Shown in pieces: positions 5,658 through 25,237 of a stretch of DNA of 36,520 nt. Each line of letters opens with the position of its first letter. Positions within the stretch are counted from its first letter, which is position 1. The notes beneath the pieces are model-generated. The model made no database searches. It worked only from the letters and a program-made list of their open reading frames with translations, and was not told the origin of the DNA. A program made the translations under genes and the position numbers. Source of the DNA: Bifidobacterium breve (lineage in GTDB: Bacteria; Actinomycetota; Thermoleophilia; Solirubrobacterales; Solirubrobacteraceae); assembly GCA_945901565.1 (NCBI GenBank), contig CAMDLG010000005.1:1-36520 (forward strand), written 5' to 3'.

Positions 5658-6968
5658 ATGACAACGGCTGCCGCTGGGATCAATGCTGACGAGCTGCCGT
5701 CGCCGCTGAAGGCGATCGTGCTGACAATCCCTTTCGCGATCCTTGGGTCGATCGTTGCGACCGTCTTTCTCTTCCTCGAAGACCACCTATTGACCGCCGT
5801 CTGGACCGACCTTCCCAAGGCGCTCGGAATGAGCGAGCCCGCTTGGTGGCTGGTGATGCTGCTGCCGCTGATCGGCGCGGGGATCGTGATGATTGCCTGG
5901 CGACTGCCGGGGAAGACCGACGCAGGCCCGCTAGAAGGGCTGCACTTCGATGTGCGGCCGGACACTTTCTTCTCAGTGATCCTCGCCGCCTTCGGCACGC
6001 TGATCTTCGGCCTTGTGCTCGGTCCTGAGGCGCCGCTGCTGGCCTGCGGCACCGCGGCCGGCGCCTTCGTTCTGCGGCGCCAGCCCGACACGGTGATGAA
6101 GTTCGGCATGTTGATGACAGCTTTGGCGGCGATCGCTGCAATCTTCGGCAACCCAGTCGTCGTCGTCCTGATGCTGGCTGAGTTCTGCGCGCTGGGGATG
6201 ATTCCGGCGGCTGCTTTGATGCCGGGCTTTGTTGCGCTTGGCGTCGCGTACGTCGCCGAAACCGGCGTCGGTAGCTGGTCCGGGTTAGGGAATGCCTCGC
6301 TTGCCGTGCCGGGGCTGCCCGAGTTCACATCGATGTCGACGGCCGACCTACTAGTTGGGCTTGGAGCGGCTCTCATCGCGGCGATCCTGACCTTGATCTC
6401 TCGCAAGATCGGCGAGCGTGTAGCGCAGGGCGCGAAGCGCAAGCCGTACCTCGTGCTCGTCGTCGTCGCGCTCGTCACGTCGGCATTAGCGCTCGCCGTC
6501 CGTGAGATCACGGGCGGGTCGATCGATTTGGTTCTTTTTAGCGGTCAGTCTGGAACGCCCGAGATGCTGGCTGAGACTTCGATCGGCGCGGTCGTGCTGA
6601 TCCTCGTCGCGAAAATGGTTGCCTACGGCGGCGCGCTTGGCGCCGGTTATCGAGGCGGCCCGATCTTCCCGGCCGTCTTCCTTGGCGTTGCGGTCGCAGT
6701 AGGCGCCGGGATTCTCTTCCCAGCGGCTTCGCTGACCGGACTAGTCGTCGCGGCGGTCGCAGCGACGGTAACCGCTGCGCTGAAAGCACCGTTCACGGCA
6801 GCCGTCCTAGCGTTGATGCTTGCAACTCAGGCAGGGGCTGCAAACGCCGCCGCTCTGGCGATCTTCGGCGCCGCGATCGGCTTCCTGCTGCGAGCCGCCT
6901 TGGACCAGAGGGACGCAGCTCGCGCCGCGCCGGAGCCGCCAGCCGGGGCTTCTCAGCCGATGAAGTAA
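5658..6968 (+). CDS. ClC-family chloride channel/antiporter-like protein
   Basis: A 436-residue integral membrane protein with ten or more hydrophobic segments. GLVLGPEAPLLACGT corresponds to the GREGP motif with the gating Glu (Glu124), and GYRGGPIFPAVFLG to the GGxFxP motif of ClC proteins. The anion-selectivity motif GSGIP is not recognisable; the aligned place reads TDAGPLEGL. This is therefore a divergent member, and transport of chloride rather than another anion is not assured. The ATG has AAGGTG a few bases upstream. Its 3' end overlaps the convergent hydrolase gene by 16 bases. Confidence 0.85.
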   Translation: MTTAAAGINADELPSPLKAIVLTIPFAILGSIVATVFLFLEDHLLTAVWTDLPKALGMSEPAWWLVMLLPLIGAGIVMIAWRLPGKTDAGPLEGLHFDVRPDTFFSVILAAFGTLIFGLVLGPEAPLLACGTAAGAFVLRRQPDTVMKFGMLMTALAAIAAIFGNPVVVVLMLAEFCALGMIPAAALMPGFVALGVAYVAETGVGSWSGLGNASLAVPGLPEFTSMSTADLLVGLGAALIAAILTLISRKIGERVAQGAKRKPYLVLVVVALVTSALALAVREITGGSIDLVLFSGQSGTPEMLAETSIGAVVLILVAKMVAYGGALGAGYRGGPIFPAVFLGVAVAVGAGILFPAASLTGLVVAAVAATVTAALKAPFTAAVLALMLATQAGAANAAALAIFGAAIGFLLRAALDQRDAARAAPEPPAGASQPMK

Positions 6969-9073: not shown

Positions 9074-9198
9074 CTTCTCTCCCAAGTAGATGTCGACGAT
9101 GACCGCCGAGCGACTTTGAAAACTACCACGCGCGGGCGCACTGCATGACCAGTCACTTGGGTGCAAGCTTTTCCGATCTACTGGCGGAGTGGTAGAAG

Positions 9199-10060: not shown

Positions 10061-10936
10061 ATGGCATCCCTTGATTTGACTTGGATTTTCGGCTCGTCAC
10101 GCAGCGGCTCCTCTTGGCTGCTGCGGATGCTGCGTCGCCACCCCGACGTCGTCGGTGTTGACGAAACTGGGCTGGGCCACCACTGAGGGCTCTGGCGGCC
10201 AATCGCGCTCGCTTGGCAGACTCCGCAGCCTCCGCCGCTAACGACCTTCATGGCCGTCAAGCAAGATCGCGAGGATTACTTCTTCAACGAGCGCTACGCG
10301 GACTCGTGGCGGCCAGCGTTGGCAGAGTTTTTCAAGTCACGGCTCGGCGCGCAGCTCGACGATTGTCAGCCCAATTGGCGAGACCCCGCGACCCGCGTTG
10401 TGATCAAGGAGCCGGGCGGCTCGCAGATGGCAGCCGAGCTGTTGGCGCTGGAGCCAAGTGCTCGATTGATCTTCCTCTTGCGTGATGGCCGTGATGTTGT
10501 GGACTCGTGGCTCGACGCGTATACCGACGGGAGCTGGGCGTCGCAGGACGGTGCCTATTCGGTCACGCCGGAGGCCCGTCTCGCCTTCGTCCGTTGGCAG
10601 GCGGCCGTCTGGAGGTACCGCACCGAGGTTGTGGCGGCGGCCTACCAGGCACACGATCCGCAGCGCCGCGCGATGGTCCGTTACGAAGAGCTCCTCGCTG
10701 AGCCACTGGTCGTTATCTCGGGGCTGCTCGAAATGCTCGGCCTAGCGAATGATCCCGAGCTTGTTGAAGGGATCGTTAGCGCTGAAGCCCTCGAAAATGT
10801 TCCCGACGAACAGAAGGGCGCCGGCAAGGAAATCCGCCGCGCGAAGCCGGGAGGATGGCGTGAGCACTTCAGCGACGACGAGCTGGCAGCAGTCAACGCT
10901 GAGATCGGCGCTAGTCTGCGGGCATATGGCTACTGA
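10061..10936 (+). pseudogene. Sulfotransferase interrupted by an in-frame TGA
   Basis: The ORF track lists only 10250-10936. Reading from ATG 10061 in that same frame gives TWIFGSSRSGSSWLLRML, a textbook 5'-phosphosulfate-binding loop of PAPS-dependent sulfotransferases, then DETGLGHH and a TGA at 10184-10186. The frame continues without another stop (GLWRPIALAW...) into the listed ORF, which carries the 3'-phosphate-binding stretch LIFLLRDGRDVVDSW and the C-terminal AKPGGWREHF. So one gene of about 291 codons is broken by a single nonsense codon, not a frameshift. The downstream fragment alone lacks the donor loop and should be inactive. A sequencing error or very recent inactivation is likely, since the rest is intact. 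Overlaps the exporter start by 11 bases. Confidence 0.82.
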
Positions 10937-12338
10937 GGCGGCTTCGCAGCCCGGCGGCGACAATCCCGGGCTGCTCTCCAAGAAAGGCTGGAAGGTTTCG
11001 ATCTTCGTCTTGGCGATGGCGAGCCTCGTCACTGCCATCGACCTGACGATTATCTCGGTCGCGCTCCCAACCGTCGAGCAGGACTTGGTCCTCAGTCCAT
11101 CGCAGGGGCAGTGGGTCGTCAACGCTTACCTGATCTCGTTCACCGTGCTGCTGATCCCGGGCGGGATGCTTGGCGACCGCATCGGTCAGATCCGGGGAAT
11201 GAACCTTGGCCTCATTATCTTCTCGATCGGCTCGCTGATGTGCGGCGCTGCCGCAGACGAGAAGCTGATCATCGCCGGCCGCGCGGTTCAGGGCCTCGGC
11301 GCCGCAATCCTGATGCCCTGCATTCAGGCGCTCGTCACGCGCGTGGCGCCGAAGGGCAAGACCGGTACCGCGTTTGGAATCTATGCCGCCGTCAGCGCGA
11401 TCGGCTTGGCCGTCGGGCCGCTGCTTGGCGGCGTGCTGGTCGACTTCGTTGACTGGCGCTGGATCTTCTACATCAACCCCCTGATCCTGCTGCCGCTGCT
11501 GGTTCTGATCCGCATGTATCTGCGCGAGGCCGGGGAGGGCATCGACAAGGAGAAGCGGCGCCTCGTCACGATGGAGATGTTGCGCCGCCCGTCGCTGCGA
11601 TCGGGCCTCTGGTTGATCTTCTTTGTTCGGCTGCCGCTTATCTGGATCTTCGTCTACTCGGGGATCTACTTCCAGAGCGTGTTGGGTTACAGCCCGTTCG
11701 TCGCCGGCCTGGCAATGCTGCCGGGGATCGCCGGGATCGCAATTGGAGGTCTCGTCGCTGGGCGCATGAAGGACAAGATCGGTTGGCGGATGCCCACCGT
11801 CCTAGGCTTCCTCGGCGTCGCCGGTTGCCTGATTCTTCTCGGCTTCGCGCTCGCTTGGGAGAGCTACCTAGCGATCGTCATTCCAATGTTCATTCTCGGG
11901 GTCGCCGTCAACATGGCGACGACCCCGGTCAACGTGCAGGCGATCACCGACGCCGACGAGCTCGAGCGTGGGATGATCTCGGGGACAATGACGGTCGCCT
12001 CGCAGTCCGGCAACACGATTGGGTCGATGATTCTGGGTGGCCTCACTAACTCGCTCGCTCTTGCGGGGATCACTGCAACTGCTGGCTACTCGGCGACTCA
12101 AATCTATGCCGAGGTTCAGCACCCCTCAGACTCAACGACGCTGCCGCAGGCTGCACTCGATGTTGGTCAGGCAGCCCTCTCCCAAGGGATGTCGACCGCC
12201 TCGTTCATCGGTGCCGGCATCATCCTTCTCGCGCTGGTGCTGGCCTGGGCGATGCGGATGTTCAAGGATCCGGGCAAGCCGCCTGCGCACAAGCGCAAGG
12301 AAGCAGGCGAATCCGCAGCAGAGCCCGCAGGGGCCTAG
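10926..12338 (+). CDS. MFS exporter, DHA2 (EmrB/QacA) family
   Basis: About 470 residues from the ATG at 10926. The track's start at 10749 lies inside the sulfotransferase gene and gives a non-membrane leader, so it is rejected. The core starts WKVSIFVLAMASLVTAIDLTII. Motif A is GGMLGDRIGQ, and motif C-like GLAVGPLLGG precedes WRWIFYINP, all typical of proton-driven 14-helix DHA2 exporters. It starts inside the end of the sulfotransferase gene, so the two were translationally coupled. The neighbourhood suggests export of a sulfated product, but DHA2 proteins also export drugs, so the cargo is inference. Its TAG stop shares the palindrome CTAG with the convergent sulfotransferase. Confidence 0.92.
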   Translation: MATEAASQPGGDNPGLLSKKGWKVSIFVLAMASLVTAIDLTIISVALPTVEQDLVLSPSQGQWVVNAYLISFTVLLIPGGMLGDRIGQIRGMNLGLIIFSIGSLMCGAAADEKLIIAGRAVQGLGAAILMPCIQALVTRVAPKGKTGTAFGIYAAVSAIGLAVGPLLGGVLVDFVDWRWIFYINPLILLPLLVLIRMYLREAGEGIDKEKRRLVTMEMLRRPSLRSGLWLIFFVRLPLIWIFVYSGIYFQSVLGYSPFVAGLAMLPGIAGIAIGGLVAGRMKDKIGWRMPTVLGFLGVAGCLILLGFALAWESYLAIVIPMFILGVAVNMATTPVNVQAITDADELERGMISGTMTVASQSGNTIGSMILGGLTNSLALAGITATAGYSATQIYAEVQHPSDSTTLPQAALDVGQAALSQGMSTASFIGAGIILLALVLAWAMRMFKDPGKPPAHKRKEAGESAAEPAGA

Positions 12339-13135
12339 GCGGTTTCGACCTGAGGGACGATTGAGTAGCGCTCAAGCAGCGCTGAGGCGGAGTCCGACTG
12401 GGCGAAGGAGCCCATCAGGTAGTCGACCGTCTCCGGACTGAGCTCCTCACGCCAGCCTCCTACGCGCGCCTTGCGTACGCGCATTGCCTGAGGGTCGTTG
12501 CGGTCGTAGTCGTTCGGCGCGCCGACACCGCTTCTGCGCTCAACTTCGCGCATCCGGTCGACGCTGCTGATCTCCAACGCCTGCTCCATCTGCGCGGAAG
12601 TCGCGTCGATCCCGAGTTGGGCGACGATCCGGCTGAACGGCTCAAGCGGTTCGCTGCGCAAGTGTTCGTAGGTGACGGAGACGACGTTGGGGTCTTCCGC
12701 ATGGGGCTCCCAGGAAGCGAAGTGTTCGACCAGCGCGGGGACGCCGTACAGGGGGTCGCGGGCGAACTGGTCAATGTCGTCCTTGAACTCTCCCGCGTGG
12801 CGGGACATGTGGTAGTAGTGCGAGACGAGAGAGTCGGCCGGACTGCGCATCAGCAGCACCACCGGCGTCGTCGCGAAGCGCTCGTCCCACGCGAGGTGGC
12901 TCATCGCTGCAAACGGCACGTCGCTGCGCTCAGCGAAGCGGTAAGCGTCGAGCGTCTTCCATGGCTGGGTTTGCTTACGGCCGTCGTCGTTTGGAATCAG
13001 CCCGAACATGTTCTCCATGTCGAGGTCCAGCCCCAGGCCGTAGACCTCATCCATCAGGTTGGAGAGCGCAAAGCGCATCCAAGTGCGACCGCTCTTGGGA
13101 TAAGAACAGAGATATGCGTCAACCGCGGGTGCCAT
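12335..13135 (-). CDS. PAPS-dependent sulfotransferase
   Basis: About 266 residues from the ATG at 13135; the track's start at 13213 adds an Arg-rich, fold-less leader. Residues 11-19, SYPKSGRTW, are the 5'-phosphosulfate-binding loop. PVVLLMRSPADSLVSHYYH is the 3'-phosphate-binding region, and RKARVGGWREEL near the C-terminus is the third PAPS-contacting segment. It should transfer sulfate from PAPS to a hydroxyl or amine acceptor that cannot be identified. It faces cysD divergently across a 107-bp gap, which fits a shared role with PAPS synthesis. Intact, unlike the upstream paralogue. Confidence 0.9.
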   Translation of the reverse strand: MAPAVDAYLCSYPKSGRTWMRFALSNLMDEVYGLGLDLDMENMFGLIPNDDGRKQTQPWKTLDAYRFAERSDVPFAAMSHLAWDERFATTPVVLLMRSPADSLVSHYYHMSRHAGEFKDDIDQFARDPLYGVPALVEHFASWEPHAEDPNVVSVTYEHLRSEPLEPFSRIVAQLGIDATSAQMEQALEISSVDRMREVERRSGVGAPNDYDRNDPQAMRVRKARVGGWREELSPETVDYLMGSFAQSDSASALLERYSIVPQVETA

Positions 13136-13206
13136 AGCGCCGATCCTAGCGCGAGATCGATGCGGTGGCAGCCGCCGCGCCGCCCGGGTAGACTGCGCGC
13201 ACGCCG

Positions 13207-13249
13207 GTCTCATACAGGGGTTCCGGCGCCCATCTACTGACTATGAGAC
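13207..13249 (+). promoter_or_regulatory. Inverted repeat enclosing the cysD start codon
   Basis: GTCTCAT at 13207-13213 is complementary to ATGAGAC at 13243-13249, so a transcript starting upstream could fold the cysD ATG into a 7-bp stem with a 29-base loop. The loop holds a smaller GGGG/GCCC pairing. No ribosome binding site is visible in the usual place. It may control translation, or be chance. Confidence 0.25.
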
Positions 13250-14148
13250 GAGAGCTAGATCGCATCGCCCTGCTGGAAGCCGAGGCGATCACAATCATGC
13301 GGGAAGTCGCCGCCGAGCTTGAACGCCCGGTGCTGCTCTTCTCGGGCGGCAAGGACTCGCTTGTGCTGCTGCGGATTGCTGAAAAGGCGTTTCGGCCTGG
13401 CCGCTTCCCGTTCCCGGTGATGCACGTTGACACGGGCCACAACTTCCCCGAGGTGATCAGCTACCGCGACGAACTGATCGAGAGCCTCGGCGAGCGGCTG
13501 ATCGTTGCCTCGGTCGAGGATTCGATCGCCGCTGGCCGAGTAGTCGACGAGACCGGCCCGGGCGCATCGCGCAACCGCTTGCAGACTGTCACGCTGCTCG
13601 ATGCACTCGCCGAACACCGCTTCGATTCCGCGATTGGCGGGGCGCGCCGCGACGAAGAGCGCGCCCGCGCAAAGGAGCGCGTCTTCTCGTTCCGTGACCG
13701 CAACGGGCAGTGGGAACCTCGGTTGCAACGGCCGGAGCTTTGGAGCCTTTACAACGGGCGGATTCGCAAAGGCGAGAGCATTCGCGCCTTCCCAATCTCA
13801 AACTGGACCGAGCTCGACGTATGGCGTTACATCGAGGCCGAGGGGCTGCCGCTGCCGTCGATCTACTTCGCCCACACACGCGAGGTGGTCGAGCGCGACG
13901 GGATGCTGCTTGCAGCCTCCGAGTACCTCGAGCTGTTCGAGGGAGAGGTGCCGTTTGAGGCGAGCGTCCGCTACCGCACCGTCGGCGACATGACCTGCAC
14001 CGGCGCGGTCGAGTCAATCGCTGCCACGATCCCCGAGGTCGTCGCCGAGATCTCCGCCTCAACGAAGACCGAGCGCGGCGAGACGCGGGCCGATGACCGT
14101 GCCACCGAGGCTGCGATGGAAGATCGCAAGAGGACCGGGTACTTCTAA
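13243..14148 (+). CDS. cysD: Sulfate adenylyltransferase subunit 2
   Basis: This is the catalytic ATP-pyrophosphatase subunit of heterodimeric ATP sulfurylase, which turns sulfate and ATP into adenosine 5'-phosphosulfate. It is 301 residues, the normal length. SGGKDS (34-39) is the PP-loop, and MHVDTGHNFPEV, GGARRDEERARAKER and the C-terminal RTGYF are CysD signatures. It is followed without a gap by cysNC (TAATG, one shared base), so the subunits are coupled. No cysH or sulfite reductase is adjacent, which points towards PAPS for sulfation as well as or instead of cysteine synthesis. Confidence 0.95.
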   Translation: MRRELDRIALLEAEAITIMREVAAELERPVLLFSGGKDSLVLLRIAEKAFRPGRFPFPVMHVDTGHNFPEVISYRDELIESLGERLIVASVEDSIAAGRVVDETGPGASRNRLQTVTLLDALAEHRFDSAIGGARRDEERARAKERVFSFRDRNGQWEPRLQRPELWSLYNGRIRKGESIRAFPISNWTELDVWRYIEAEGLPLPSIYFAHTREVVERDGMLLAASEYLELFEGEVPFEASVRYRTVGDMTCTGAVESIAATIPEVVAEISASTKTERGETRADDRATEAAMEDRKRTGYF

Positions 14149-16070
14149 TGGAGAGTGCGACCATTCCATCGCTTGGGACTCAGCCGGTCGAGGAGGGCGA
14201 CCTGCTGCGGCTACTGGTCGCCGGCTCCGTCGACTCCGGCAAGAGCACGCTGATCGGCCGTCTCCTCTACGACGCCAAGCTGCTGCTGTCGGACCAGATC
14301 GAGGCACTTGAGAAGACCAGCATCGACCGGGGCGAGGATGAGCTCGATCTGTCGCTGATCACGGACGGACTGCGCGCCGAGCGCGAGCAGGGAATCACGA
14401 TCGACGTTGCCTACCGCTACTTCTCTACGCCGCAACGCGCCTTCATCGTCGCTGACACGCCCGGACACGTCACTTACACGCGCAACATGGTCACCGGCGC
14501 CTCCAACAGCGACGTGGCATTGCTGCTGGTCGAAGCGCCAACCGGTGCGGTCGAGCAGTTCCGCCGCCACGCCGCGATTGTCTCGATGCTGCGAATTCCA
14601 CAGCTGATCGTCGCCGTCAACAAGATGGACCTTGTCGGCTACGCGCAGGAGCGCTTCGAGGCCGTCGTCGCCGAGCTGACTCCTTGGGTTGAGCAGCTCG
14701 AGATTCCGCAGGTCACCTTCATCCCGATCGACGCCCTTGGCGGTGCCAACGTTGTTGACCGCGCGGAATCGCTCGGCTGGTATTCGGGGTCGACCCTGCT
14801 GCACGAGCTCGAGAGCGTCTCCGTCGTCGCCGATCGCAACTTCAGCGACTACCGGTTCCCGGTTCAGAGTGTTATTCGCGGCGGAGGCGGCGAGGGGGGG
14901 AGCGCAAGGGCGCTGGCAGGCCAAGTCGCCGCGGGCATCATGCGCCCCGGCGACGAAGTTGTCGTGCTGCCGTCCGGCGAGCGCTCTCACATCGCCTCGA
15001 TCGAGACGCTCGACGGGAGGCTTGACGAGGCCTGGCCGCCGATGGCCGTTGCGGTGCGCCTCGCCGATGAGATCGACGTCAGCCGCGGCGACATGCTCTG
15101 TCAGCCCGGAAACCGGGCGAGTGTCACCGAAAACCTGACCGCGCGGGTCTGCTGGATGTCGGAGAAGCCGCTCCTCGCCGGAGCCAGACTTCTTCTCAAG
15201 CACACCACGAAGACCGTGCCCGCCCGCGTTGATCAGCTGGTCCACAGGGTTGAACTCGACACTCTTGGCGCCGAGCCGGAACCGGCTGCGCTCGAGCTGA
15301 ACGACCTGGGCGTCATTTCAGTCTCCACGACAACGCCGATCTGTGTCGATCCATACCGGGTTAACCGTCGCACCGGCGCGTTCGTTCTTATTGACGAGGC
15401 CACCGGGGACACCGTCGCGGCCGGGATGGTGCTCCACAGCGACGAGATGCGCGAACCGCGCGGCGCCACCAATGTCATCTGGCAGGACTCGCGCACGACC
15501 CGCGCGCAGCGCGTCGAGCGGCTCGGCCATGCCGGCGCCACAGTCTGGCTGACGGGCCTTCCTGGGGCCGGCAAGACGACGGTTGCCGCTGCAGTCGAGG
15601 AGCGCTTGGTCGCCTCAGGCCGGCCGGCCTATCTGCTGGACGGCGACAACCTGCGCCACGGCCTCAACAGCAACCTCGGCTTCACTGAAGCGGACCGGAC
15701 CGAGAACGTCCGCCGCACGGCGGAGTTGGCCCGGCTGTTTGCCGATGCCGGTTTCGTGGTGCTGGTCAGTGTCGTGTCGCCGGATGCGGACGCCCGTGCC
15801 GCCGCTAGGGGAATCCACGACGAACACGAGCTTCCGTTCATCGAGGTCTTTGTTGACGCGCCGTTAGAAGTCTGCGAGCAGCGCGATCCGAAGGGCCACT
15901 ACGCGCGCGCCCGCGCCGGCGAGATCGCAGGGTTCACCGGAGTGGATGCTCCGTACGACTCGCCGACTGATCCCGAGCTGACGCTTGATACAGACAGGCT
16001 TGAGCCCGGCGAGGCGGTCGCCCTTCTGGTCGACCTGATCAGTGCACGGGTCCCCGACCCGCGCGGCTAG
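14148..16070 (+). CDS. cysNC: Bifunctional sulfate adenylyltransferase subunit 1 / adenylylsulfate kinase
   Basis: A 640-residue fusion. The N-terminal about 440 residues are the regulatory GTPase CysN: P-loop GSVDSGKSTL, EQGITIDVAYRYF, DTPGH and NKMD, followed by EF-Tu-like barrels. The C-terminal part (about 455-640) is APS kinase: P-loop GLPGAGKTT at about 469-477, DGDNLRHGLNSNLGF and FVDAPLEVCEQRDPKG. Together with CysD it makes APS and phosphorylates it to PAPS, the donor for the two neighbouring sulfotransferases. The same fusion occurs in mycobacteria and in rhizobial NodQ. The stop is a CTAG palindrome shared with the convergent acyltransferase gene. Confidence 0.95.
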   Translation: MESATIPSLGTQPVEEGDLLRLLVAGSVDSGKSTLIGRLLYDAKLLLSDQIEALEKTSIDRGEDELDLSLITDGLRAEREQGITIDVAYRYFSTPQRAFIVADTPGHVTYTRNMVTGASNSDVALLLVEAPTGAVEQFRRHAAIVSMLRIPQLIVAVNKMDLVGYAQERFEAVVAELTPWVEQLEIPQVTFIPIDALGGANVVDRAESLGWYSGSTLLHELESVSVVADRNFSDYRFPVQSVIRGGGGEGGSARALAGQVAAGIMRPGDEVVVLPSGERSHIASIETLDGRLDEAWPPMAVAVRLADEIDVSRGDMLCQPGNRASVTENLTARVCWMSEKPLLAGARLLLKHTTKTVPARVDQLVHRVELDTLGAEPEPAALELNDLGVISVSTTTPICVDPYRVNRRTGAFVLIDEATGDTVAAGMVLHSDEMREPRGATNVIWQDSRTTRAQRVERLGHAGATVWLTGLPGAGKTTVAAAVEERLVASGRPAYLLDGDNLRHGLNSNLGFTEADRTENVRRTAELARLFADAGFVVLVSVVSPDADARAAARGIHDEHELPFIEVFVDAPLEVCEQRDPKGHYARARAGEIAGFTGVDAPYDSPTDPELTLDTDRLEPGEAVALLVDLISARVPDPRG

Positions 16071-17890
16071 CTTTCGCCGTCGCCGAAGATCTGGTAGCGG
16101 CCGAGGTCGCCGAGTCGCGTGTTGATGATTGCTTCGGCTACGACCATGCTCGTCGGATCGGCCGCGACCGCCTCGAGGAAGGCGTCGCGGCTCAGGACCA
16201 TTACGACGCCCTTTGAGCTTGCCGTGACGGTCGCGGTCCTTTCGGTGTCGCGCAGCAGCGCGATCTCTCCGAACGACTCGCCGGGGCCGAGCTCGCGCAG
16301 CGTCTTGCCATCGGCGCTGACGTCAAACTTGCCTTCGACAATCAGGAAAAAGAGGTCTCCGTGCTGGCCCTGCTCGGCCAGACTCTCTCCGCTCTTGACC
16401 TTGCGCTCGCTCATCTTTGATGCGAGGTCCTCCTGCATGTCCTCGTCCAGCGGAGCGAAGACCGGGACCCGCCTGACCAGGTCGAGTCGCCCGACGCCGC
16501 CTGCAAGCGCCTTTTCAGTCTCCTCAAAGCCGCGGACGAACGGGTCGAGGCTCTTGACCGCACTCTTGTCCCCTGCAAGGCCGATCGACACGACGCCGCC
16601 CACCGAGACAACGTTCAGGTGCAGCGCCAGTCCGACGCGCGGAAGTGTGAAGCTGTGGAGCGAAGCGGTTGGTGCACCGAGCACGTAGAGCTTGATTGGC
16701 GGGCCCGGAAGGTTGTGGATCGCCACGTTGGCCTGCCCGCGGCCGGTGATCAGCGGGAGTATGCGGTCACGGACCTGCGATGGCGCCTCCCGCAGCATCT
16801 TGCGCACGGCCAGGTTGTGCGCCGGCTCTCCGGCGGCTTTGATCGATTCGGTCCTCTCTCGCACATTGCGCACGCGCCTGACCGGATCGTCGATCTCCAC
16901 CGGCAGCGGCACAACCATCGGCGCCACGCCGGGGTTACCGGCTTCGCCCGCTTTGCGGTCCTTCTTCAGCGAAACCGGGACCCGCACGGCGAGATCTTCG
17001 AGCGGCTCGCCGTTCTCAATCAGCCACTGACGCAGTCCGCCGGCAACGAGGCCGAGGATTACGTCGTTCATCGTCGCGCCGGTACCAAGCCCGCGGCCGA
17101 GGAGCTTGAGCCGATCGAGCGGGTATTCGAGCGTTCGTAGCTCCAGTGGAGCTCCAGTTCCATTCGCCAGCGGGCTAGCCGGCATTTCCTCGCGGCTCTT
17201 CCTGAGCAGGTACGAGCCCACCCCTGCGGTGGCATTCGCCGCCTCGCGGAGCTGCTGCGGATGAGTGATCAAGCTTGTCGCCCGATCCAGCAGGCTGTCT
17301 GCGTCGGCGGCGTCGCCGCTTGGATCGTTCTTCAGCTCGGACGCGGTCGGCAGCGGCGCGGGGCTCCAGGGTGCAGCCTCCTCGCGCTGGGGCTCGACCG
17401 TCACGTCGAAAAGCAGCATCGCGAACAGAGCGATTGAGCCGAGGCCGTCGGCTAGGGCGTGGCTGGACTTCACCATCAGCGCCGCGCCGTCCTCCGTCGG
17501 CCCAATGTACTGAACCCGCCAGAGGGGCTTGGTCTCGTCGATCGGAGTCGTCATCCACTCAGCAAGGAGCTCGTCCAGTTCCTGGCGGTTTACGGGACCG
17601 TCGGTATCGGCCTTGACGACGTGGTAATCGAGGTCAAAATCCTGGTCGTCGGCCCAGGCCGGGAGTCCCGAGGCGCCGTCCGGCAGGTACGGGGCCTGGC
17701 GGAACCGCGGCGAGCGCCCGAGCCGCTCGTTGACCATCTCGCGAACCTCCTCAAAGCTAGGAACCGACCCGTCCTCGCGCTTCGCAAGGCGGCACAACCC
17801 GATCACCAAGTGGCTGATGCCGCACCCAAGGTAAGCTGCATCGGCTGCTCCGAGGCGTTCCAGAGCAACAGCTTCAGTGGGGTCGGTCAT
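16067..17890 (-). CDS. WS/DGAT-type O-acyltransferase fused to a cyclic-nucleotide-binding domain
   Basis: A 607-residue, two-part protein. Residues about 10-455 are a wax ester synthase/diacylglycerol acyltransferase: PLW (KPLWRVQYIG), ND (MNDVILGLVAGGL), NLPGPP, and the active-site motif HHxxxDG in the form S143-H144-ALA-D148-G149. The second His, the catalytic one, is kept while the first is Ser. Residues about 468-595 form a CRP-like cNMP domain with a complete phosphate-binding cassette (GESFGEIALLRDTERTATV, Glu and Arg present). WS/DGATs make triacylglycerol or wax esters from acyl-CoA; allosteric control by cAMP or cGMP is inferred from the fusion. It is divergent from the NTE-like gene, 59 bases apart. 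Acyl acceptor unknown. Confidence 0.9.
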   Translation of the reverse strand: MTDPTEAVALERLGAADAAYLGCGISHLVIGLCRLAKREDGSVPSFEEVREMVNERLGRSPRFRQAPYLPDGASGLPAWADDQDFDLDYHVVKADTDGPVNRQELDELLAEWMTTPIDETKPLWRVQYIGPTEDGAALMVKSSHALADGLGSIALFAMLLFDVTVEPQREEAAPWSPAPLPTASELKNDPSGDAADADSLLDRATSLITHPQQLREAANATAGVGSYLLRKSREEMPASPLANGTGAPLELRTLEYPLDRLKLLGRGLGTGATMNDVILGLVAGGLRQWLIENGEPLEDLAVRVPVSLKKDRKAGEAGNPGVAPMVVPLPVEIDDPVRRVRNVRERTESIKAAGEPAHNLAVRKMLREAPSQVRDRILPLITGRGQANVAIHNLPGPPIKLYVLGAPTASLHSFTLPRVGLALHLNVVSVGGVVSIGLAGDKSAVKSLDPFVRGFEETEKALAGGVGRLDLVRRVPVFAPLDEDMQEDLASKMSERKVKSGESLAEQGQHGDLFFLIVEGKFDVSADGKTLRELGPGESFGEIALLRDTERTATVTASSKGVVMVLSRDAFLEAVAADPTSMVVAEAIINTRLGDLGRYQIFGDGES

Positions 17891-17949
17891 TGCTGCAATC
17901 TACCGCTAACGCGCTCCACTGTGTCACTAAGCCGTAGACTCGCATCCGC

Positions 17950-19662
17950 GTGAGCAAGAGAGACCACATCGACGAATTGCTAGCTGCGAGCCCGCTCTTC
18001 AGCAGTCTCCCTGCGGAGGTCACGACGCTTCTCAGGGCGAAGCTGACCGAGGTCTCGATCGAGTCCGGCGACTGGCTGATGCGAAAGGGGGACTCGGGCG
18101 ACGCGCTCTACATCGTCGATGCCGGACGGCTGGAGGTTGTTCTGGGGGAACAGGAGGGGGTTGGCCGCGAGGACGATGAGACGATGCGGGTTCTTCGCGT
18201 GCTTGGTCGCGGAGCGACGGTCGGCGAACTCGCCCTCGTTACCGGCGACCCGCGCTCGGCTTCCGTCCGCGCCAACCGGGACAGCACGCTGCTGCGCCTC
18301 AGTCACGACGATTTTCAAGAGCTGATCACGACCGAGCCGACCTTCGCGGCCGCATTGACCGCGGTCCTCGGGCGCCAGCTCCAGATCAGCGGCGGCTTCC
18401 GGGAGGACGAACCCGCGACGAAGGCGATTGCGATCGTTCCACTGGTCGAGGGGATGAACAGCGAAGTGATTGCCGAGGCCATCCTCGCTGCATTCGATTC
18501 GCGAGACGACGTTGTGCTGATGGGGCGCAGCACGTCGGACGTCGGCAGCCCAGCTGACTGGGGGCGCAAACTTGACGAGCTTGAGGCAGCCCACGACCGC
18601 GTAGTTCTCGTTGCCGAGCACGCGCTCTCGGATTGGCGCAAGTTTTGCGTGCGCCAGGCCGACAGGCTCGTCTGCCTTGCCCCGCCGGAGCCGCCGCCGG
18701 CCGAGCGGACAATGCCAAGGCTGCGCGGCTGCGATCTCGTCCTACTTGGCGAGAACCATCCGCCCGAAATCGCCGCCGTCTGGCTCGATCGGCTGCGCCC
18801 GCGGGCACGTCACAGGGTACGCGCGGGGGCTGGCCGCGATGCCGACCTCGCGCGCGTTGCAAGGCGCGTAACGGGCCGGTCGCTTGGACTTGTGCTTGGC
18901 GGAGGCGGTGCGCGCGGATATGCCCACCTCGGCGTACTCGAGGTTCTCGAGGAGAACGGGATCGCAGTTGACCGCATCGGCGGCACCAGCATGGGGGGGA
19001 TCGTCGCGTCAACATTTGCCTACGGCTTGAATGCCGCTCAGCGCCGACAGGCGGTCAAAAGCTTCGTCTCCCCACGAGTGCGCCGGCCTCAGTTGCCGCC
19101 CCGCAGCGCGCTCGTGAGGACGGACCGCGGGGTTGAGACGGTGCAAAGAGTCTTCGGCGACCAGCAGATCGAGACGCTGCCGATCGATCTGTTCACGGTG
19201 GCTGCAGATCTCGTGGCCGCCGAGATGGTCGTGCAGCGCCGCGGTTCGGTAGCCGAGGCGCTGCTGTCAACCGCCCGAGTCCCGGCGATTTTCCCGCCGG
19301 GACGCACAGCCGGTCGACTGCTCGTCGATGGAGGGCTGATCCGCAATCTGCCGGTCGACGTGATGTCGCAGACGGGAGAGGGGCCGGTCGTCGCGATTGA
19401 GGTCGGAGGCCGCTTCGATCCGCCGATCGACGCGGACGGCGACCCGGCGCTGCCAGGGATAGGAGAGACGTTGATGCGGTCGGTGCTGCTCGGATCGGCT
19501 GCGGCCGGAAGCGACGTCATCGCCGGCGCAGATCTGCTGCTCGAACCCGACGTGTCGGGAATGAAGATGATGGCCTTTGGCGAGATTGATCGCGGAATCG
19601 CGATCGGCCGCGCCGCTGCGACGGCCCGGCTTGAAGAGATTCGCGCGCTTACGAGTCGCTGA
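17950..19662 (+). CDS. NTE-like patatin phospholipase with N-terminal cyclic-nucleotide-binding domain
   Basis: A 570-residue protein. Residues about 10-145 form a cNMP domain with an intact cassette (GATVGELALVTGDPRSASV). A middle region (about 155-300) resembles the Rossmann-like linker in bacterial and animal NTE proteins. Residues about 310-490 are the patatin hydrolase: oxyanion motif GGGGARG, nucleophile Ser347 in GTSMGG and Asp460 in DGG, so the catalytic dyad is complete. It should hydrolyse phospholipids, lysophospholipids or neutral lipid esters near the membrane, probably in response to cyclic nucleotide. GTG start without a visible ribosome binding site. It overlaps cheA tail to tail by 14 bases and is divergent from the WS/DGAT gene. 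Confidence 0.92.
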   Translation: MSKRDHIDELLAASPLFSSLPAEVTTLLRAKLTEVSIESGDWLMRKGDSGDALYIVDAGRLEVVLGEQEGVGREDDETMRVLRVLGRGATVGELALVTGDPRSASVRANRDSTLLRLSHDDFQELITTEPTFAAALTAVLGRQLQISGGFREDEPATKAIAIVPLVEGMNSEVIAEAILAAFDSRDDVVLMGRSTSDVGSPADWGRKLDELEAAHDRVVLVAEHALSDWRKFCVRQADRLVCLAPPEPPPAERTMPRLRGCDLVLLGENHPPEIAAVWLDRLRPRARHRVRAGAGRDADLARVARRVTGRSLGLVLGGGGARGYAHLGVLEVLEENGIAVDRIGGTSMGGIVASTFAYGLNAAQRRQAVKSFVSPRVRRPQLPPRSALVRTDRGVETVQRVFGDQQIETLPIDLFTVAADLVAAEMVVQRRGSVAEALLSTARVPAIFPPGRTAGRLLVDGGLIRNLPVDVMSQTGEGPVVAIEVGGRFDPPIDADGDPALPGIGETLMRSVLLGSAAAGSDVIAGADLLLEPDVSGMKMMAFGEIDRGIAIGRAAATARLEEIRALTSR

Positions 19663-21739
19663 GCAGCCTGCGGAAGGCATCGAGGACCGCGGCTTCAGCC
19701 TCGGGTCCCTTCTCGACAAAGCCATCGGCGCCGGCCTCGGCTGCCGCCGCGGGGAGCGTGGGATTGTCGCTCGCGCTCCAAAAGATCACCGACAGCTCGT
19801 CCAGCAGGCCCCGCTCGCTGAGTTCGGTCACCAGCTCTATGCCGTCCATCTGCGGCATCTCGAAATCGGTCAGCAGCGCGGCGAAGTCTCCCTCCAGCAA
19901 TGCTGTCAGCGCCGCTCGGCCGTCTTCGGCAACCTCAACGACGTAGCCGGCGGCGCTCAGCGCCCGCCGCGCGCGCTCGCGCTGGGTCGCCGAATCTTCG
20001 GCAACCAGCACTCGGGGCGCCGGAGGAAGGGTTGCGATCAGAGCACGCGCGTCGACCAGGCGAAGAACCTCGCCGCTGGGAAGAATCGCTGCGCTGCGAA
20101 CCATCTCGGTGGCCGGCAGTGGCGGAGGCAGTGGCATCGTTCCCAGACGCAGCACCGAAAGGACGTCGTAGACCGGAAGCGCAATCCTGCGTGCGTCGGC
20201 CTCCACGGCGATCGCAAATCGTGCTTGCTGATGCCCTCCGGGGGCAAGCTGCGCTAGCACTTCCGGTCCAACCAGTGGCACGGGCGCCTCGCCAACTTGC
20301 ACTGGGCCGTGGTCGGCCTCGCGATCCTCGAGCGAGACGATTCGGACAGCGTCGCTGAGGACAATGCCGATCGGGTCCCGGCCGAGCTGCGCGACGATGC
20401 ATTCGATCGCCGCGATCGCCAGCGGCGCCCGCAGCGTGAAGGTGCTCCCCTTGCCAGGGATGCTCTCTATCTCGACCGACCCTTGGAACGCCGCAAGCCC
20501 CTCAAAGACGGCATCCAGACCAACCCCTCGTCCCGAGATCTTGCTCACGCTGTCGCGCGTGCTGAAGGCCGGCTTCAGGACAAAGCGGATCAGTTCCTCG
20601 TACTCCATTGTCGCCGCCGCCTTGGCGTCGACGAGCCCGAGCGCAATTGCCCTCGACTTGACTGCGTCGCCGTCAATCCCGACGCCGTCGTCGGACATCT
20701 CGATTGACAGCTGAGAGCCGCGCGCCTTGGCTGAGACCGAGATCGTTCCCTGCTCAGGCTTTCCTGCGGCCGCGCGCATCGCCGGCGGCTCGATCCCGTG
20801 GTCAACGGCGTTGCGGATCAGGTGAACAAGCGCGGGCCTGATCACCTCAAGCACTGCACGGTCAACGTCAATCCCCCCGCCCGAGAGCTCAAGCTGCACT
20901 TCCCGGCCAAGGTCGCGGGCGAGGTCCCGGACCGTCCTCGGTAGCGGATCGAAGGCCAGTGATAGCGGCACTGTGCGGGCCTGCGAGATGTCGTCGGAGA
21001 GCTCCCGCGTGGCACGTTGCAGGCGTGCGAGTGGCTGCTCGGTGGCGTCGCGGATTGCGCCAGCGCGCGAGTCGTACTGGCGGGCGGCGAGGTCGGCCGC
21101 CTCGGCGACACCGGTCAGTTCCTGGGCTGCGTGTTCTATCCCCACGCGGGCGCTTTCCAGCTCGCGCACCGAGCCGATCAGGCGGTCGAGTTTTGCGACC
21201 GAAACGCGCACCGTGGAGTCCTGCACCGGCGCGGTCTTCTGCGGCTCGGGAGCTGTCTGCGCGCCGGCAACGGAAAGAGTGCTCGGTTCAGTCTCCTCCG
21301 GAGCCCCGCCATCAGAGTCGGGCTTATCGTCCCCGTGAGAGCCCGCGAGCTCATCGCAGAGGCTTGACACGTTCACCTCTGCAGGTGGCCCGCCCCCGGC
21401 TGCCTCAACCAGCGACTCGATCGCGTCAAGCGCCCGGTAGCCAAGATCAACCGTCTCGCTGTCGAACTTTCCGCGGGCGGCTGCGCCGCTGAGCAGCGTC
21501 TCCAGCGCGTGCGAGATGCGATCAACCGGCTCAAGCTCGATGGCGCGCGCTCCCCCCTTGAGGCTGTGAGCGGCGCGCATCATCTCTTCAACGCGGCCTG
21601 CGCCGACAGCCGCCGCCGTATCGGCTTCCAGCGCAACCAGCCCTGCCGAGAGCGTGTCCAGCTCGTCGCGCGCCTCGCCAGCAAAGATCGCCAGCAGTTC
21701 GCGCTGCAGCTCGGCGTCGGGGCGGAAGGCCTTGCTCAC
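19649..21739 (-). CDS. cheA: Chemotaxis-type histidine kinase CheA with C-terminal receiver (hybrid)
   Basis: About 696 residues from GTG 21739, which overlaps the cheW stop as GTGA; the track's start at 21901 lies within cheW and is rejected. Order: Hpt domain with His58 (AAHSLKGG), P3 dimerisation helices (VRVSVAKLDRLIGSVRELE), P4 ATPase (HLIRNAVDHGIE, DDGVGID, GRGVGLDAV), P5 CheW-like domain, then a receiver (about 575-696) with phospho-Asp in LLTDFEMPQMDG and Lys in FVEKG. It autophosphorylates under chemoreceptor control and can pass phosphate to its own receiver or, by inference, to the receiver-cyclase of the same unit. No separate CheY is present. The attached receiver may act as a phosphate sink. 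Confidence 0.93.
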   Translation of the reverse strand: MSKAFRPDAELQRELLAIFAGEARDELDTLSAGLVALEADTAAAVGAGRVEEMMRAAHSLKGGARAIELEPVDRISHALETLLSGAAARGKFDSETVDLGYRALDAIESLVEAAGGGPPAEVNVSSLCDELAGSHGDDKPDSDGGAPEETEPSTLSVAGAQTAPEPQKTAPVQDSTVRVSVAKLDRLIGSVRELESARVGIEHAAQELTGVAEAADLAARQYDSRAGAIRDATEQPLARLQRATRELSDDISQARTVPLSLAFDPLPRTVRDLARDLGREVQLELSGGGIDVDRAVLEVIRPALVHLIRNAVDHGIEPPAMRAAAGKPEQGTISVSAKARGSQLSIEMSDDGVGIDGDAVKSRAIALGLVDAKAAATMEYEELIRFVLKPAFSTRDSVSKISGRGVGLDAVFEGLAAFQGSVEIESIPGKGSTFTLRAPLAIAAIECIVAQLGRDPIGIVLSDAVRIVSLEDREADHGPVQVGEAPVPLVGPEVLAQLAPGGHQQARFAIAVEADARRIALPVYDVLSVLRLGTMPLPPPLPATEMVRSAAILPSGEVLRLVDARALIATLPPAPRVLVAEDSATQRERARRALSAAGYVVEVAEDGRAALTALLEGDFAALLTDFEMPQMDGIELVTELSERGLLDELSVIFWSASDNPTLPAAAAEAGADGFVEKGPEAEAAVLDAFRRLLSDS

Positions 21740-22155
21740 GTTGTCGCCTGCAGCCGCGGGTCTTCGAGCAGCAGTGTCGTGTCGATCACGCGCGGCTCGC
21801 CTGGAGGAGCGGGTTGCAGCCACTCGGGGTCGTCCGGCGCCCTGTCGTCGGGCAGGTCGTCGGCGGCGGGCAGGTCGCGCGGCCCGCTGATCCCATCGCA
21901 TAGCAGCCCGTATTCAAGTCCGGCTCCGTGGACGGCAACGAGCAGGCCGTCGACCGTCGGTGCGCCGCTGAGCATGAAGCCGAGGTCAACCACGCCGATC
22001 AGGTTGCCGCGCAGATTTGCAACGCCGGCCCATTCACGGCCTGCAGCAGGGAGCGGCGCGATGTGCGCGTCGGCAACGATCTGAATCAGGTCGTCCTGCC
22101 GCAGCGCCCGTCCCTCGGGCAGAAGCTCCAGCAGCTTCGCCTCGTCGCCGGCCAC
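21736..22155 (-). CDS. cheW: CheW-like coupling protein
   Basis: A 139-residue protein, the length of a single CheW domain. The core VANLRGNLIGVVDLGFML is the typical GxxxxRGxxxPVxDL segment. CheW couples the chemoreceptor to the CheA P5 domain. The gene lies between the receptor and cheA: its GTG is four bases after the receptor stop, and its TGA overlaps the cheA GTG, so all three are coupled. The C-terminal part is unusually rich in Asp and Pro (DLPAADDLPDDRAPDDPEW). Confidence 0.85.
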   Translation of the reverse strand: MAGDEAKLLELLPEGRALRQDDLIQIVADAHIAPLPAAGREWAGVANLRGNLIGVVDLGFMLSGAPTVDGLLVAVHGAGLEYGLLCDGISGPRDLPAADDLPDDRAPDDPEWLQPAPPGEPRVIDTTLLLEDPRLQATT

Positions 22156-22159
22156 CAGC

Positions 22160-24124
22160 TCACTCGTTGGTCAGCGTCGCAGCGAGCTCGCGCAGACGCT
22201 CGGCGAGGCGGTCGAGTTCGGCGGCCGACTTAGAAGACTGATGCGATTCGCTGCGCAGCTCCTCGGCGCGCTCGGATGCGATCGCAGTCGCATCGACGAT
22301 CTTCCCAAGCGTTTCAACCTGGGCTGGCGCAGCGTCTGCAATTCCGCGTGTCGCGTCCTCGGCGTCCTTGTTCGCGGCTGCCAGTTCGTCGATCGTCGCT
22401 GCCGCGCGTTCGGCCCGCTCGCGGCCCGTCCGCACGGAAGCGATCCCGTGCTCCGATGAGCGCTCGGCGTCGCGGGTCGCCTTGTCGATCTCGCCAAGGA
22501 TCGAACGGATCTGCGCGGTCGCACGCTTTGACCGTTCAGCGAGCGTCCGGACCTCTTCGGCGACGACCGCAAACCCTGCTCCCTGCTCGCCTGCCTTGGC
22601 CGCTTCGATCGTCGCGTTGAAGGCCAGCAGGTTCGACTGGTCGGCGATGCTCGAGACGGTCTGGACGATCTCACCGATCTGAGCGGTCTGCGTTGCCAGA
22701 TTTGAGATCTCCTTCGAGATGCCGCTGACGCGCTCGTCGATTTCGGCCATCGTGCTGTCCACTTCGGAGGCGGCGCGGCGACCGTCCTCTCCTGCGCTGG
22801 ACGCCCGTCCCGCTTGGGCCGCCACCGTCGCGGCCCGCTCGGCAATGCGGCCGCTGGTGTCGCGCATTTCGGCAACGAGATCGCTCATCTGTTCCATCGC
22901 TGAGAGCTGCTCCTCCGCGCGCGTCTCTGTCAGGCGGGCGCGTTCCCGGCTCGCTTCGGCGCTCTTCTGCATCGCCTTCGCTCCGTCTTCGACTTCGACC
23001 GAGCTTTCGCGCAGTCGCTCGGCCCGGCGCGTGAGCGCGCGGCTCACGATCAGAGCGAGCAGGCTTGCCAACAGGGCCACGAGGAGCGTTGCGACGATCA
23101 GGCCGTTGCGAAGGCGGCCTATGTCACGCAGCGCATCGTTTGTCGGCTGTGTCACTACTGCCGTCCAGTCGAGCCTCGGTGTGCCGATGCTGGCATCCAT
23201 CGGCGCATAGCCGACGATGACGTTGTCGGGAAGAGCGTTGCTCTTCGGGACCTCGGTGTCGTAGCCCGGGGTCTGCGCGTTGACGATCTCCTTCACCAGC
23301 GGGTCTTGGGTCAGATTAGAGTTGAGGTTGATCTTGCCGCCCGGGGCGAGCAACAGGTGCCCCTGCTCGTCGATGATGTAACCGCCCTGTCCGACGATGG
23401 TCGATCGCGAGGCGCGGGCTCCAAGCTTCGATTCACTCATAGACGCGAAGGCGGTCCAGTTCAGGAACACGGCGACGACGCCGATCGGCCTGTTGCCCCT
23501 CATCACCGCGATGGCGCTAACCGGAGTCGGCGGCGCACTGTTGTTGCCTTCAAGGCGGCCGATGAAGGGACGCCGCTCAACGGTTTGAGTCACCGCGTTG
23601 GCGCGGCCGTCCCTGGCGTTACGGAGCGCAATCTCAAACCAGCTCGGCTTGCCGATTGACTTGCCGACGAAGTTCTTGAACGGAATAAGCCTTGTGGCCT
23701 CGGGAGGCCTGCGGGCTATTGCCACAACCCGCCCGTCAACTCCGAGCAGTACAGCCTGCCGGTAGACAGGGCTGTAGGTCTTGACTTCGCTGGTAAGGCG
23801 GTTGGCTGCACGGGCGGCTTGCATTGTCTGGATGCGCTCGCTGGTTGCCAGCGAACCGGTCTCCTGATCGGTTCGCTTCAGCTCCGTCTCAATTTCAACG
23901 ATTGCGCTGATCGCTTCCGCCCTGACAGCGCGGCCGGCGCCGGCGGTCATAATGCTCCTCGTCTGGAACTGCGCGAACAGCGCTACGACAAAGGTTGGGA
24001 CGATGGCGATTCCAACCAGCAGCCAGGGAAGGCGCCTGCGCGACGTGATCCAGCGGGTACGGCGTGCATCGTCAACCGCCACCTGGCGCTGCTTCGCGAC
24101 CTCTGCCTCCTCTTCAGCCATCAC
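22160..24124 (-). CDS. Methyl-accepting chemotaxis protein (transmembrane chemoreceptor)
   Basis: A 654-residue receptor. There is a cytoplasmic N-terminus, TM1 at about 32-52 ([20 protein letters not shown]), then a roughly 285-residue extracytoplasmic sensor of the dCache kind, with a PAS-like [15 protein letters not shown] segment. TM2 lies at about 340-364, followed by helical linker and the signalling hairpin. The hairpin tip [35 protein letters not shown] matches the CheA/CheW-binding consensus. The ligand is unknown; dCache receptors often bind amino acids or other small molecules. No cheR or cheB is nearby, so methylation-based adaptation is uncertain. Thirty bases after the cyclase stop, same strand. 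Confidence 0.93.
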
Positions 24125-24154
24125 GGGGAAACTATCAGCGAACGGCGATCTGCA

Positions 24155-25237
24155 TCAGGCTTCATCGAACGACCAGACTCCCAGCGGCTGGTCGCGCCCC
24201 CGGATGTCGACCTCGTCAACGAAAATGAGGTCTTCGGGAGGGCTGATCAGCATCTCTTTCGTCGACTGCGAGCAGTAGAGCTGGTGCGCAGTGCCCTTGG
24301 TCATCCCTTCAAGCCGTGCGGCGGTGTTCGTGGTGTCGCCGAGCGCCGTGTACTCAAGGCGCTTCTCGGAGCCGACATTGCCGGAGATCACGCCGCCGCT
24401 GTTGAGGCCAATCCCCATCCGGAAACCTTCTCCAAGGCCCTGCTCCTTCATCCACTCGCTGAAACGGGGGAGGTGGACATCTAGCATCGCCCTAGCCGCA
24501 CGGAGCGCGCGGTCGGCGTGGTCTTCCTGCTCCAGCGGCGCGCCGAAGACGGCCATGATGCCGTCACCCATGTAGGCAACGATCGTGCCCTCCTCTTCGA
24601 GGATCGCTTCCGACATCTCGCCGAGGTACTTGTTGACCACGTCGATCACCTGCTCGGGCTTCTGATGCTCAGAGAACTGGGTGAATCCGCGCAGGTCGGT
24701 GAACATCACGGTCGCAGTGCGGTCGACTCCGCCAAGCTTCACGCCGTCGTCGCTGCGAGTGATGATCTGCTCGGCGACCGACTCCGGGACGAAGCGGCGG
24801 AAGGCATCCTTCAGCTTGCCGTAGAGATGCTCGATCTCAGCCTGCTGCTCGGTGATCGTGCGGTGCAGAGCCGTCACGCGCTCGGCAGCGATCAGGCGGG
24901 TCGAGAGCGCGACCTGATCGAGCGGCTTGATCAGGTAGTCGTCGGCGCCTCCCTGCATCCCGTCGATCACCTCTTCGGAGGTGTCGAGCGCCGTCAGCAG
25001 GACCACGTAGATGTAGCGGCCCGAGAGTTCGCTGCGAATCTTCGAGCAGAGCTCGTCGCCTCCCATCCCCGGCATCATCCGGTCGGTGATGCAGACGTCG
25101 ATCGTGTCGTCCTGCTGGATCAGCTCCCATGCTTCAAGGCCGTCCTTGGCCGTGAGCGGCTGATGGCCAAGCGCCGCCACCGACCGCTCGAGCAGCAGTC
25201 GCCATGTGGGGGAGTCGCTGGCGCAAAGGACCCGCAT
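24155..25237 (-). CDS. Receiver-class III adenylate/guanylate cyclase
   Basis: A 360-residue protein with a CheY-like receiver (1-120: Asp8 of the acidic pair kept but its partner is Ser7, phospho-Asp52 in CITDRMMPG, Thr82 and Lys104), a coiled-coil linker (about 120-145) and a class III cyclase domain (about 170-355). Metal ligands Asp181 (MFTDLRGFT) and Asp225 (AYMGDG) and the transition-state pair Asn304/Arg308 (TTNTAARLE) are present. By my alignment the purine-specifying Lys is Ala221 and its partner is Thr297, so cAMP is likely but not certain. It is the natural output for CheA phosphorylation, and makes the second messenger for the two cNMP-binding lipid enzymes nearby. Confidence 0.92.
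   Translation of the reverse strand: MRVLCASDSPTWRLLLERSVAALGHQPLTAKDGLEAWELIQQDDTIDVCITDRMMPGMGGDELCSKIRSELSGRYIYVVLLTALDTSEEVIDGMQGGADDYLIKPLDQVALSTRLIAAERVTALHRTITEQQAEIEHLYGKLKDAFRRFVPESVAEQIITRSDDGVKLGGVDRTATVMFTDLRGFTQFSEHQKPEQVIDVVNKYLGEMSEAILEEEGTIVAYMGDGIMAVFGAPLEQEDHADRALRAARAMLDVHLPRFSEWMKEQGLGEGFRMGIGLNSGGVISGNVGSEKRLEYTALGDTTNTAARLEGMTKGTAHQLYCSQSTKEMLISPPEDLIFVDEVDIRGRDQPLGVWSFDEA

Follow-up and report, generated by a model that had tools for sequence, protein, structure and literature searches.

The question raised by this locus is whether a bacterial chemosensory array can act directly on lipid enzymes by means of a cyclic nucleotide. The window, meaning the whole stretch of DNA analysed (36,520 nucleotides, contig CAMDLG010000005.1 of assembly GCA_945901565.1), comes from a metagenome-assembled genome (MAG) of a freshwater member of the Solirubrobacterales (Actinomycetota), the assembly being 1.56 Mb long and 86.7% complete. 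It contains six neighboring genes, for a receiver-cyclase, a chemoreceptor (MCP), CheW, CheA and two lipid enzymes, each of which carries a cyclic-nucleotide-binding (cNMP) domain. We consider it probable, though with reserve, that the unit encodes a non-motility chemosensory array that controls a cyclic-nucleotide switch on the lipid enzymes, where the steps of phosphotransfer, synthesis, binding and regulation are those that we infer. The six genes lie where a first-pass annotation of this DNA had placed them, and all pass the curated Pfam cut-offs used for domain calls (NCBIfam/TIGR models were used with their own cut-offs). That observation was confirmed, and the interpretation attached to it, a signalling chain that governs lipid storage and breakdown, appears partly supported at the level of sequence.

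24155-25237, minus strand: receiver-class III nucleotidyl cyclase (Response_reg 67.8 bits, Guanylate_cyc 88.2 bits), with the receiver at about 24869-25237 and the cyclase domain at about 24158-24817
22160-24124, minus strand: membrane chemoreceptor (MCP; MCPsignal 108 bits) with a predicted extracytoplasmic dCache-type sensor
21736-22155, minus strand: CheW, a short coupling protein (CheW 32.3 bits)
19649-21739, minus strand: CheA with a C-terminal receiver (Pfam Hpt, H-kinase_dim, HATPase, CheW and Response_reg)
17950-19662, plus strand: patatin-like lipase with an N-terminal cNMP domain at about 17977-18348 (Pfam cNMP_binding and Patatin)
17891-17949: divergent intergenic region, 59 bp between the WS/DGAT and patatin starts (open reading frame coordinates)
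16067-17890, minus strand: WS/DGAT-type acyltransferase with a C-terminal cNMP domain at about 16151-16483 (WS_DGAT_cat, WS_DGAT_C and cNMP_binding)

The whole chemosensory core (MCP, CheW and CheA) is present in one locus, above Pfam cut-off. The receiver-cyclase, MCP, CheW and CheA genes follow each other in an operon-like series, the first two junctions being gaps of about 30 and 4 nt and the third a 4-nt overlap. The description of these genes as one minus-strand unit stands for all four, but the CheA start needed correction: it is most likely the GTG at 21739, with a 4-nt overlap of the CheW stop, and not the first ATG at 21901, since the orthologues align from that GTG. The patatin gene is convergent with CheA and divergent from the WS/DGAT gene.

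In CheA, the Hpt His58, the ATPase motifs and D625 of the receiver are invariant among six orthologues; Pfam gave no match to a P2 domain in this protein. CheW is 45-97% identical among the cluster orthologues. The MCP matches dCache_1 below the Pfam threshold (E 3e-6). Structure comparisons used predicted models and Foldseek, and the MCP model (pLDDT, the predicted local distance difference test, of 72) matched the sensor domains of PctD, PctA, CtaA and DctB together with MCP cytoplasmic domains. A call on the dCache ligand was dropped, since amino-acid and C4-acid sensors were matched alike. In the receiver of the cyclase, the phospho-acceptor D52 and residues T82, K104 and D8 are invariant in the cluster orthologues (eight compared), and the first position of the acidic pair is Ser in the window and Ser or Thr in the orthologues. 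The metal-binding D181 and D225 and the transition-state residues N304 and R308 of the cyclase domain are likewise invariant in eight cluster orthologues. The purine-specifying position (D-4) is occupied by Ala221, with neither the Lys of adenylyl cyclases nor the Glu of guanylyl cyclases; the product could therefore be cAMP or cGMP. Ala or Ser is found at this position in nearly all of the Thermoleophilia class III cyclase clade (L179-L242).

Neither CheR nor FliF (PF01514) was found in the window's assembly and four same-genus cluster relatives, all of them incomplete MAGs; CheB got no separate search. The CheR and FliF searches gave matches in a flagellated relative (G003) and in control genomes. 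Motility chemotaxis as the role of the array is unsupported by these results, and the lack of CheR is compatible with a chemosensory core.

Both lipid enzymes carry the intact Glu/Arg pair of the cNMP cassette that had been reported for them: E542 and R551 are invariant in nine WS/DGAT-cNMP sequences, and E93 and R102 in 12 patatins. By sequence, the cNMP domain of the acyltransferase is closest to those of PKG and PKA and also matches mycobacterial Pat (PDB 4oll, 4onu); that of the patatin is closest to Streptomyces CRP-type and PKA/PKG domains. In the patatin, the GGGxRG motif and the Ser-Asp dyad (Ser347 and Asp460) are invariant in the 12 sequences. Its designation as NTE-like holds for the architecture only, a cNMP domain with a patatin domain and its dyad; the NTE_Ploop model is matched at 16.5 bits, below the cut-off of 27. 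The WS/DGAT assignment also held in part. Both Pfam domains score above cut-off (PF03007 107.5 bits, PF06974 66.6 bits), but TIGR02946 is matched below its cut-off (250.5 vs 309.95 bits) and the motif is SHxxxDG, not HHxxxDG, with Ser or Gly in place of the first His across the sequences. H144, D148 and G149 are invariant in nine sequences. Given the altered motif and the low TIGR02946 score, wax ester or triacylglycerol activity of this enzyme is only putative. A low-confidence model of the WS/DGAT-cNMP protein (mean pLDDT 52) was matched by Foldseek to the WS/DGAT structure 6chj and to PKG; with nine sequences and this mean pLDDT, we make no claim on the docking of the cNMP domain.

Three cNMP domains were detected in the window's assembly, all on lipid enzymes (two WS/DGATs and the patatin), and one other class III cyclase was found, with a weak match. 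The second WS/DGAT-cNMP (G000:C6:26084-27862; L097 9085-10875) is 62% identical to the first, has no array or cyclase beside it, and adjoins an MFS gene that is 60% identical to the MFS gene of the window. In a related MAG, two versions of the patatin-CheA-WS/DGAT part occur (G002:C51 and G002:C315), which may reflect duplication or mixed strains.

Co-conservation of the six genes in relatives was then the point on which their functional association could be judged, and it was observed across two families. Of 17 genomes in the genus, five have the six genes. Synteny at this level is weak evidence, because cysD/cysNC and genes for a P450, an amidase and an MBL protein are equally syntenic there. 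In three genomes from a second family of the order (G217, G264, G279), the six genes show identical order and strands with different flanks, which leads us to reject a chance neighborhood. In all, the set is found in eight genomes, complete or in fragments, and in a ninth (L183) the first four genes are followed by the contig end. In a sample of 399 genomes of the class, the full-length receiver-cyclase (at least 82% identical), the patatin (at least 62%) and the WS/DGAT-cNMP (at least 70%) are each present in one identical group of seven genomes and in no others; these represent two lineages, not seven independent events. Between the families, the cyclase is 82-84% and the WS/DGAT 69-71% identical, compared with 56-62% for elongation factor P (EF-P). 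With the cyclase more alike than EF-P, there is a hint that the block spread recently in a single horizontal event. The named relatives are mostly Solirubrobacterales MAGs from lakes and reservoirs.

Comparable arrangements with different components exist elsewhere. Proteins related to the receiver-cyclase (about 40-48% identical over full length) are encoded beside hybrid or multi-sensor histidine kinases; at each of the four loci for which sufficient flank was available on either side, a cNMP-domain protein also lies within about 4 kb of the cyclase. This partner is an MFS-cNMP protein in two MAGs of Actinomycetota, a glycosyltransferase-cNMP in Kitasatospora and, in Streptomyces, a cNMP protein of 240 aa. 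At a further locus, L238, for which only one flank was available, the kinase is present and a cNMP gene is not. Near the sister CHASE2-type cyclases, 12 cNMP genes were found within 3 kb (244 kb read) versus three at 4-10 kb (320 kb), an enrichment by a ratio of 4.5 (p 0.004), with partners that include MFS-cNMP, patatin-cNMP and, from a class-search locus, glutaminase-STAS-cNMP. The window unit is one case of a kinase, a receiver-cyclase and a cNMP effector, in which the array takes the place of the kinase and the lipid enzymes that of the effectors. On the tree, the distribution of the receiver fusion takes two changes to explain, but a single origin was not rejected (approximately unbiased test, p 0.16).

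Individual loci of this kind were also noted in their own right. At L172 (5128-8777), a glutaminase-STAS-cNMP gene converges on the gene of a related class III cyclase and encodes a candidate cNMP-gated glutaminase. In Kitasatospora sp. MBT63 (L236, 4817-18176), a hybrid kinase, the glycosyltransferase-cNMP and the receiver-cyclase are found with a C39-peptidase ABC exporter that has two cNMP domains. A C-terminal cNMP domain on an MFS protein was seen near class III cyclases at L155, L156, L188, L189, L205, L206, L218 and L233, and such proteins are candidate cNMP-gated transporters.

The window holds further genes next to the WS/DGAT gene:

13243-16070, plus strand: cysD and cysNC, for sulfate adenylyltransferase and adenosine 5'-phosphosulfate kinase, in the synthesis of 3'-phosphoadenosine 5'-phosphosulfate (PAPS) (PRK05253 and PRK05506 above cut-off)
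12335-13213, minus strand: sulfotransferase of the PAPS-dependent type (Sulfotransfer_1 70.6 bits)
10749-12338, plus strand: MFS exporter, whose start is probably downstream of the listed ATG (MFS_1 204 bits)

The sulfotransferase and the MFS exporter, on which the first-pass annotation made no remark, belong to the unit: they lie beside the WS/DGAT-cNMP gene in equal orientation in both families (elsewhere at L140 18319-19901, L141 15190-18183 and L142 15571-19899). At L142, two sulfotransferases surround the WS/DGAT gene, the second lying between it and the patatin gene. The cysD/cysNC pair separates the sulfotransferase from the WS/DGAT gene in the window's genus only and is not at that site in the other family. 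With a sulfotransferase and an MFS exporter in the unit, the final product may therefore be a sulfated or exported lipid, not a storage lipid. The proposal of opposing enzymes for lipid storage and breakdown is over-specific in view of these two genes, of the PAPS genes in one genus and of the diverged WS/DGAT, and should be widened to acyl-lipid metabolism, possibly with sulfation and export.

In the mechanism that we propose, the dCache sensor of the MCP would bind an extracytoplasmic small molecule, and MCP-CheW would set the autophosphorylation of CheA. Phosphorylated CheA would donate its phosphate to the cyclase-fused receiver, with the receiver of CheA itself serving as a phosphate sink or relay. 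The cyclase-fused receiver would then switch the class III cyclase, changing the cNMP level, and the cNMP would bind the cNMP domains of the WS/DGAT and the patatin and alter their activity or their location at membrane or droplet. The products would enter a lipid pathway whose end product, through the sulfotransferase and the MFS exporter, may be a sulfated or exported lipid. The joint travel of these genes suggests that some freshwater Solirubrobacterales switch their lipid metabolism directly in response to a chemical signal from outside.

Several observations weigh against this mechanism. The purine-specifying Lys is missing from the cyclase, whose receiver is also one acidic residue short. 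Eight or nine MAGs, all from two genera, contain the unit, possibly through one transfer, and the independent evidence is limited accordingly. A cNMP protein of CRP size is encoded in four cluster-bearing genomes (G001, G002, G004, G010) and might serve as the principal receptor. Among CRP/FNR-like domains there are many that do not bind cNMP, and the product of the cyclase might act mainly through a CRP-type transcription factor encoded elsewhere, leaving the cNMP domains of the lipid enzymes silent or as structural relics. The mammalian enzyme PNPLA7 also lends itself to such an explanation, in that a cAMP analogue changed its lipid-droplet location, not its activity (PMC5704489); cNMP may therefore control location rather than turnover in the window enzymes. 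We regard the transcription-factor route as unlikely, considering that every lipid enzyme of the clusters has kept the cassette unchanged, that among the 399 class genomes WS/DGAT-cNMP occurs only with the cyclase cluster, and that no CRP-like protein was found in the window's assembly. Since that assembly is incomplete and relatives have the CRP-sized protein, some transcriptional action of the messenger may have its place beside direct control. We think it quite improbable that the six genes were transferred together as modules with no functional tie, with the array controlling something else (e.g., pili) and the lipid enzymes as passengers. The high identity of cyclase and WS/DGAT relative to EF-P does hint at block transfer, but the unit is kept while its flanks differ, it contains no stand-alone CheY-like output gene, and the linkage of cyclase and cNMP effector recurs elsewhere with other parts.

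The direct switch on lipid enzymes, which we prefer, has a variant in which the array gates a sulfated, exported surface acyl-lipid: the WS/DGAT would acylate, the patatin trim, the sulfotransferase sulfate and the MFS protein export. This variant is possible, if on the doubtful side. It is favored by the persistence of sulfotransferase and MFS genes with the six genes in both families, by the insertion of cysD-cysNC, a potential PAPS supply, in one genus, and by the divergence of the WS/DGAT, whose second copy also sits by an MFS gene. However, cysD-cysNC serves general sulfate assimilation, and joint travel may reflect one transferred block. We would hold only tentatively, and with rather more doubt, the fullest form of the proposal, namely that array, receiver-cyclase and enzyme-fused cNMP receptors gate acyl-lipid production, sulfation and export as a single mobile unit of eight genes, none of them for a transcription factor.

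Mycobacterial Pat provides a precedent, being an acyl-group transferase with a fused cNMP domain that switches it directly at the post-translational level; it is, however, a GNAT protein acetyltransferase, not a lipid enzyme, and has no linked chemosensory array. NTE/PNPLA6-PNPLA7 and actinobacterial cNMP-patatins share with the window patatin the presence of both domains in one chain, but the window patatin is linked to a cyclase and an array. Among chemosensory systems, Wsp of Pseudomonas (PMC8552884) also combines an MCP, CheW, a hybrid CheA-receiver and a receiver fused to a cyclase in a non-motility role: WspA is the MCP, and the CheA-receiver WspE phosphorylates the receiver-GGDEF protein WspR. 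WspR is a diguanylate cyclase, whereas the window encodes a class III mononucleotide cyclase and no GGDEF; moreover, the unit is without WspF, no counterpart of WspC (CheR) was found, and the candidate receptors are enzyme-fused cNMP domains. By analogy, the unit may work like Wsp without being a member of it. The Pil-Chp/CyaB/Vfr system of Pseudomonas aeruginosa (PMC12632253) likewise ties an array to a class III cyclase; there, the separate receiver PilG activates the stand-alone membrane cyclase CyaB, and the raised cAMP acts through Vfr on transcription. In the window, by contrast, the receiver is fused to the cyclase, no PilG/PilH-like gene is in the unit, and the candidate receptors are enzymes. 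Cyst control in Rhodospirillum centenum (PMC3868531, PMC4681086) joins the Che-like cascade Che3 to a cyclic mononucleotide in a non-motility role, as in the window, but not as one gene unit; its cGMP acts via the CRP homologue CgrA, and no lipid enzyme fusion is involved.

The literature searched, which left most subscription papers outside, gave, under the terms used, no account of a WS/DGAT-cNMP fusion, no paper joining patatin, cNMP domain, cAMP and mycobacteria, and no description of cNMP wiring from an array to lipid enzymes, in agreement with the novelty first supposed. Known chemosensory outputs are motility machines, diguanylate cyclases, or cAMP acting through a transcription factor, and the output proposed here differs in that a cyclic nucleotide would directly regulate two lipid enzymes, both of them products of adjacent genes. 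Should this hold, bacteria would have a counterpart to the regulation of lipid metabolism by hormones and cAMP, the cNMP domains on NTE-like patatins would gain a function, and a compact set of about six proteins would be at hand for test-tube rebuilding. The recurring cyclases with cNMP-fused effectors (transporter, glycosyltransferase, glutaminase, patatin) supply many further pairs in which direct cNMP gating of bacterial enzymes may be sought.

Outside the unit, a cytochrome P450 gene (25280-26548) precedes the cyclase by 42 bp, in the same orientation, in the majority of the genus's cluster genomes; it was rejected as a unit member, being next to the cyclase neither in G002 nor in the other family. 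A 737-aa open reading frame at 6953-9166 of the window has no Pfam match. Two MAG records titled Bifidobacterium breve (L181, L215) have Solirubrobacterales content, which points to mislabelled records.

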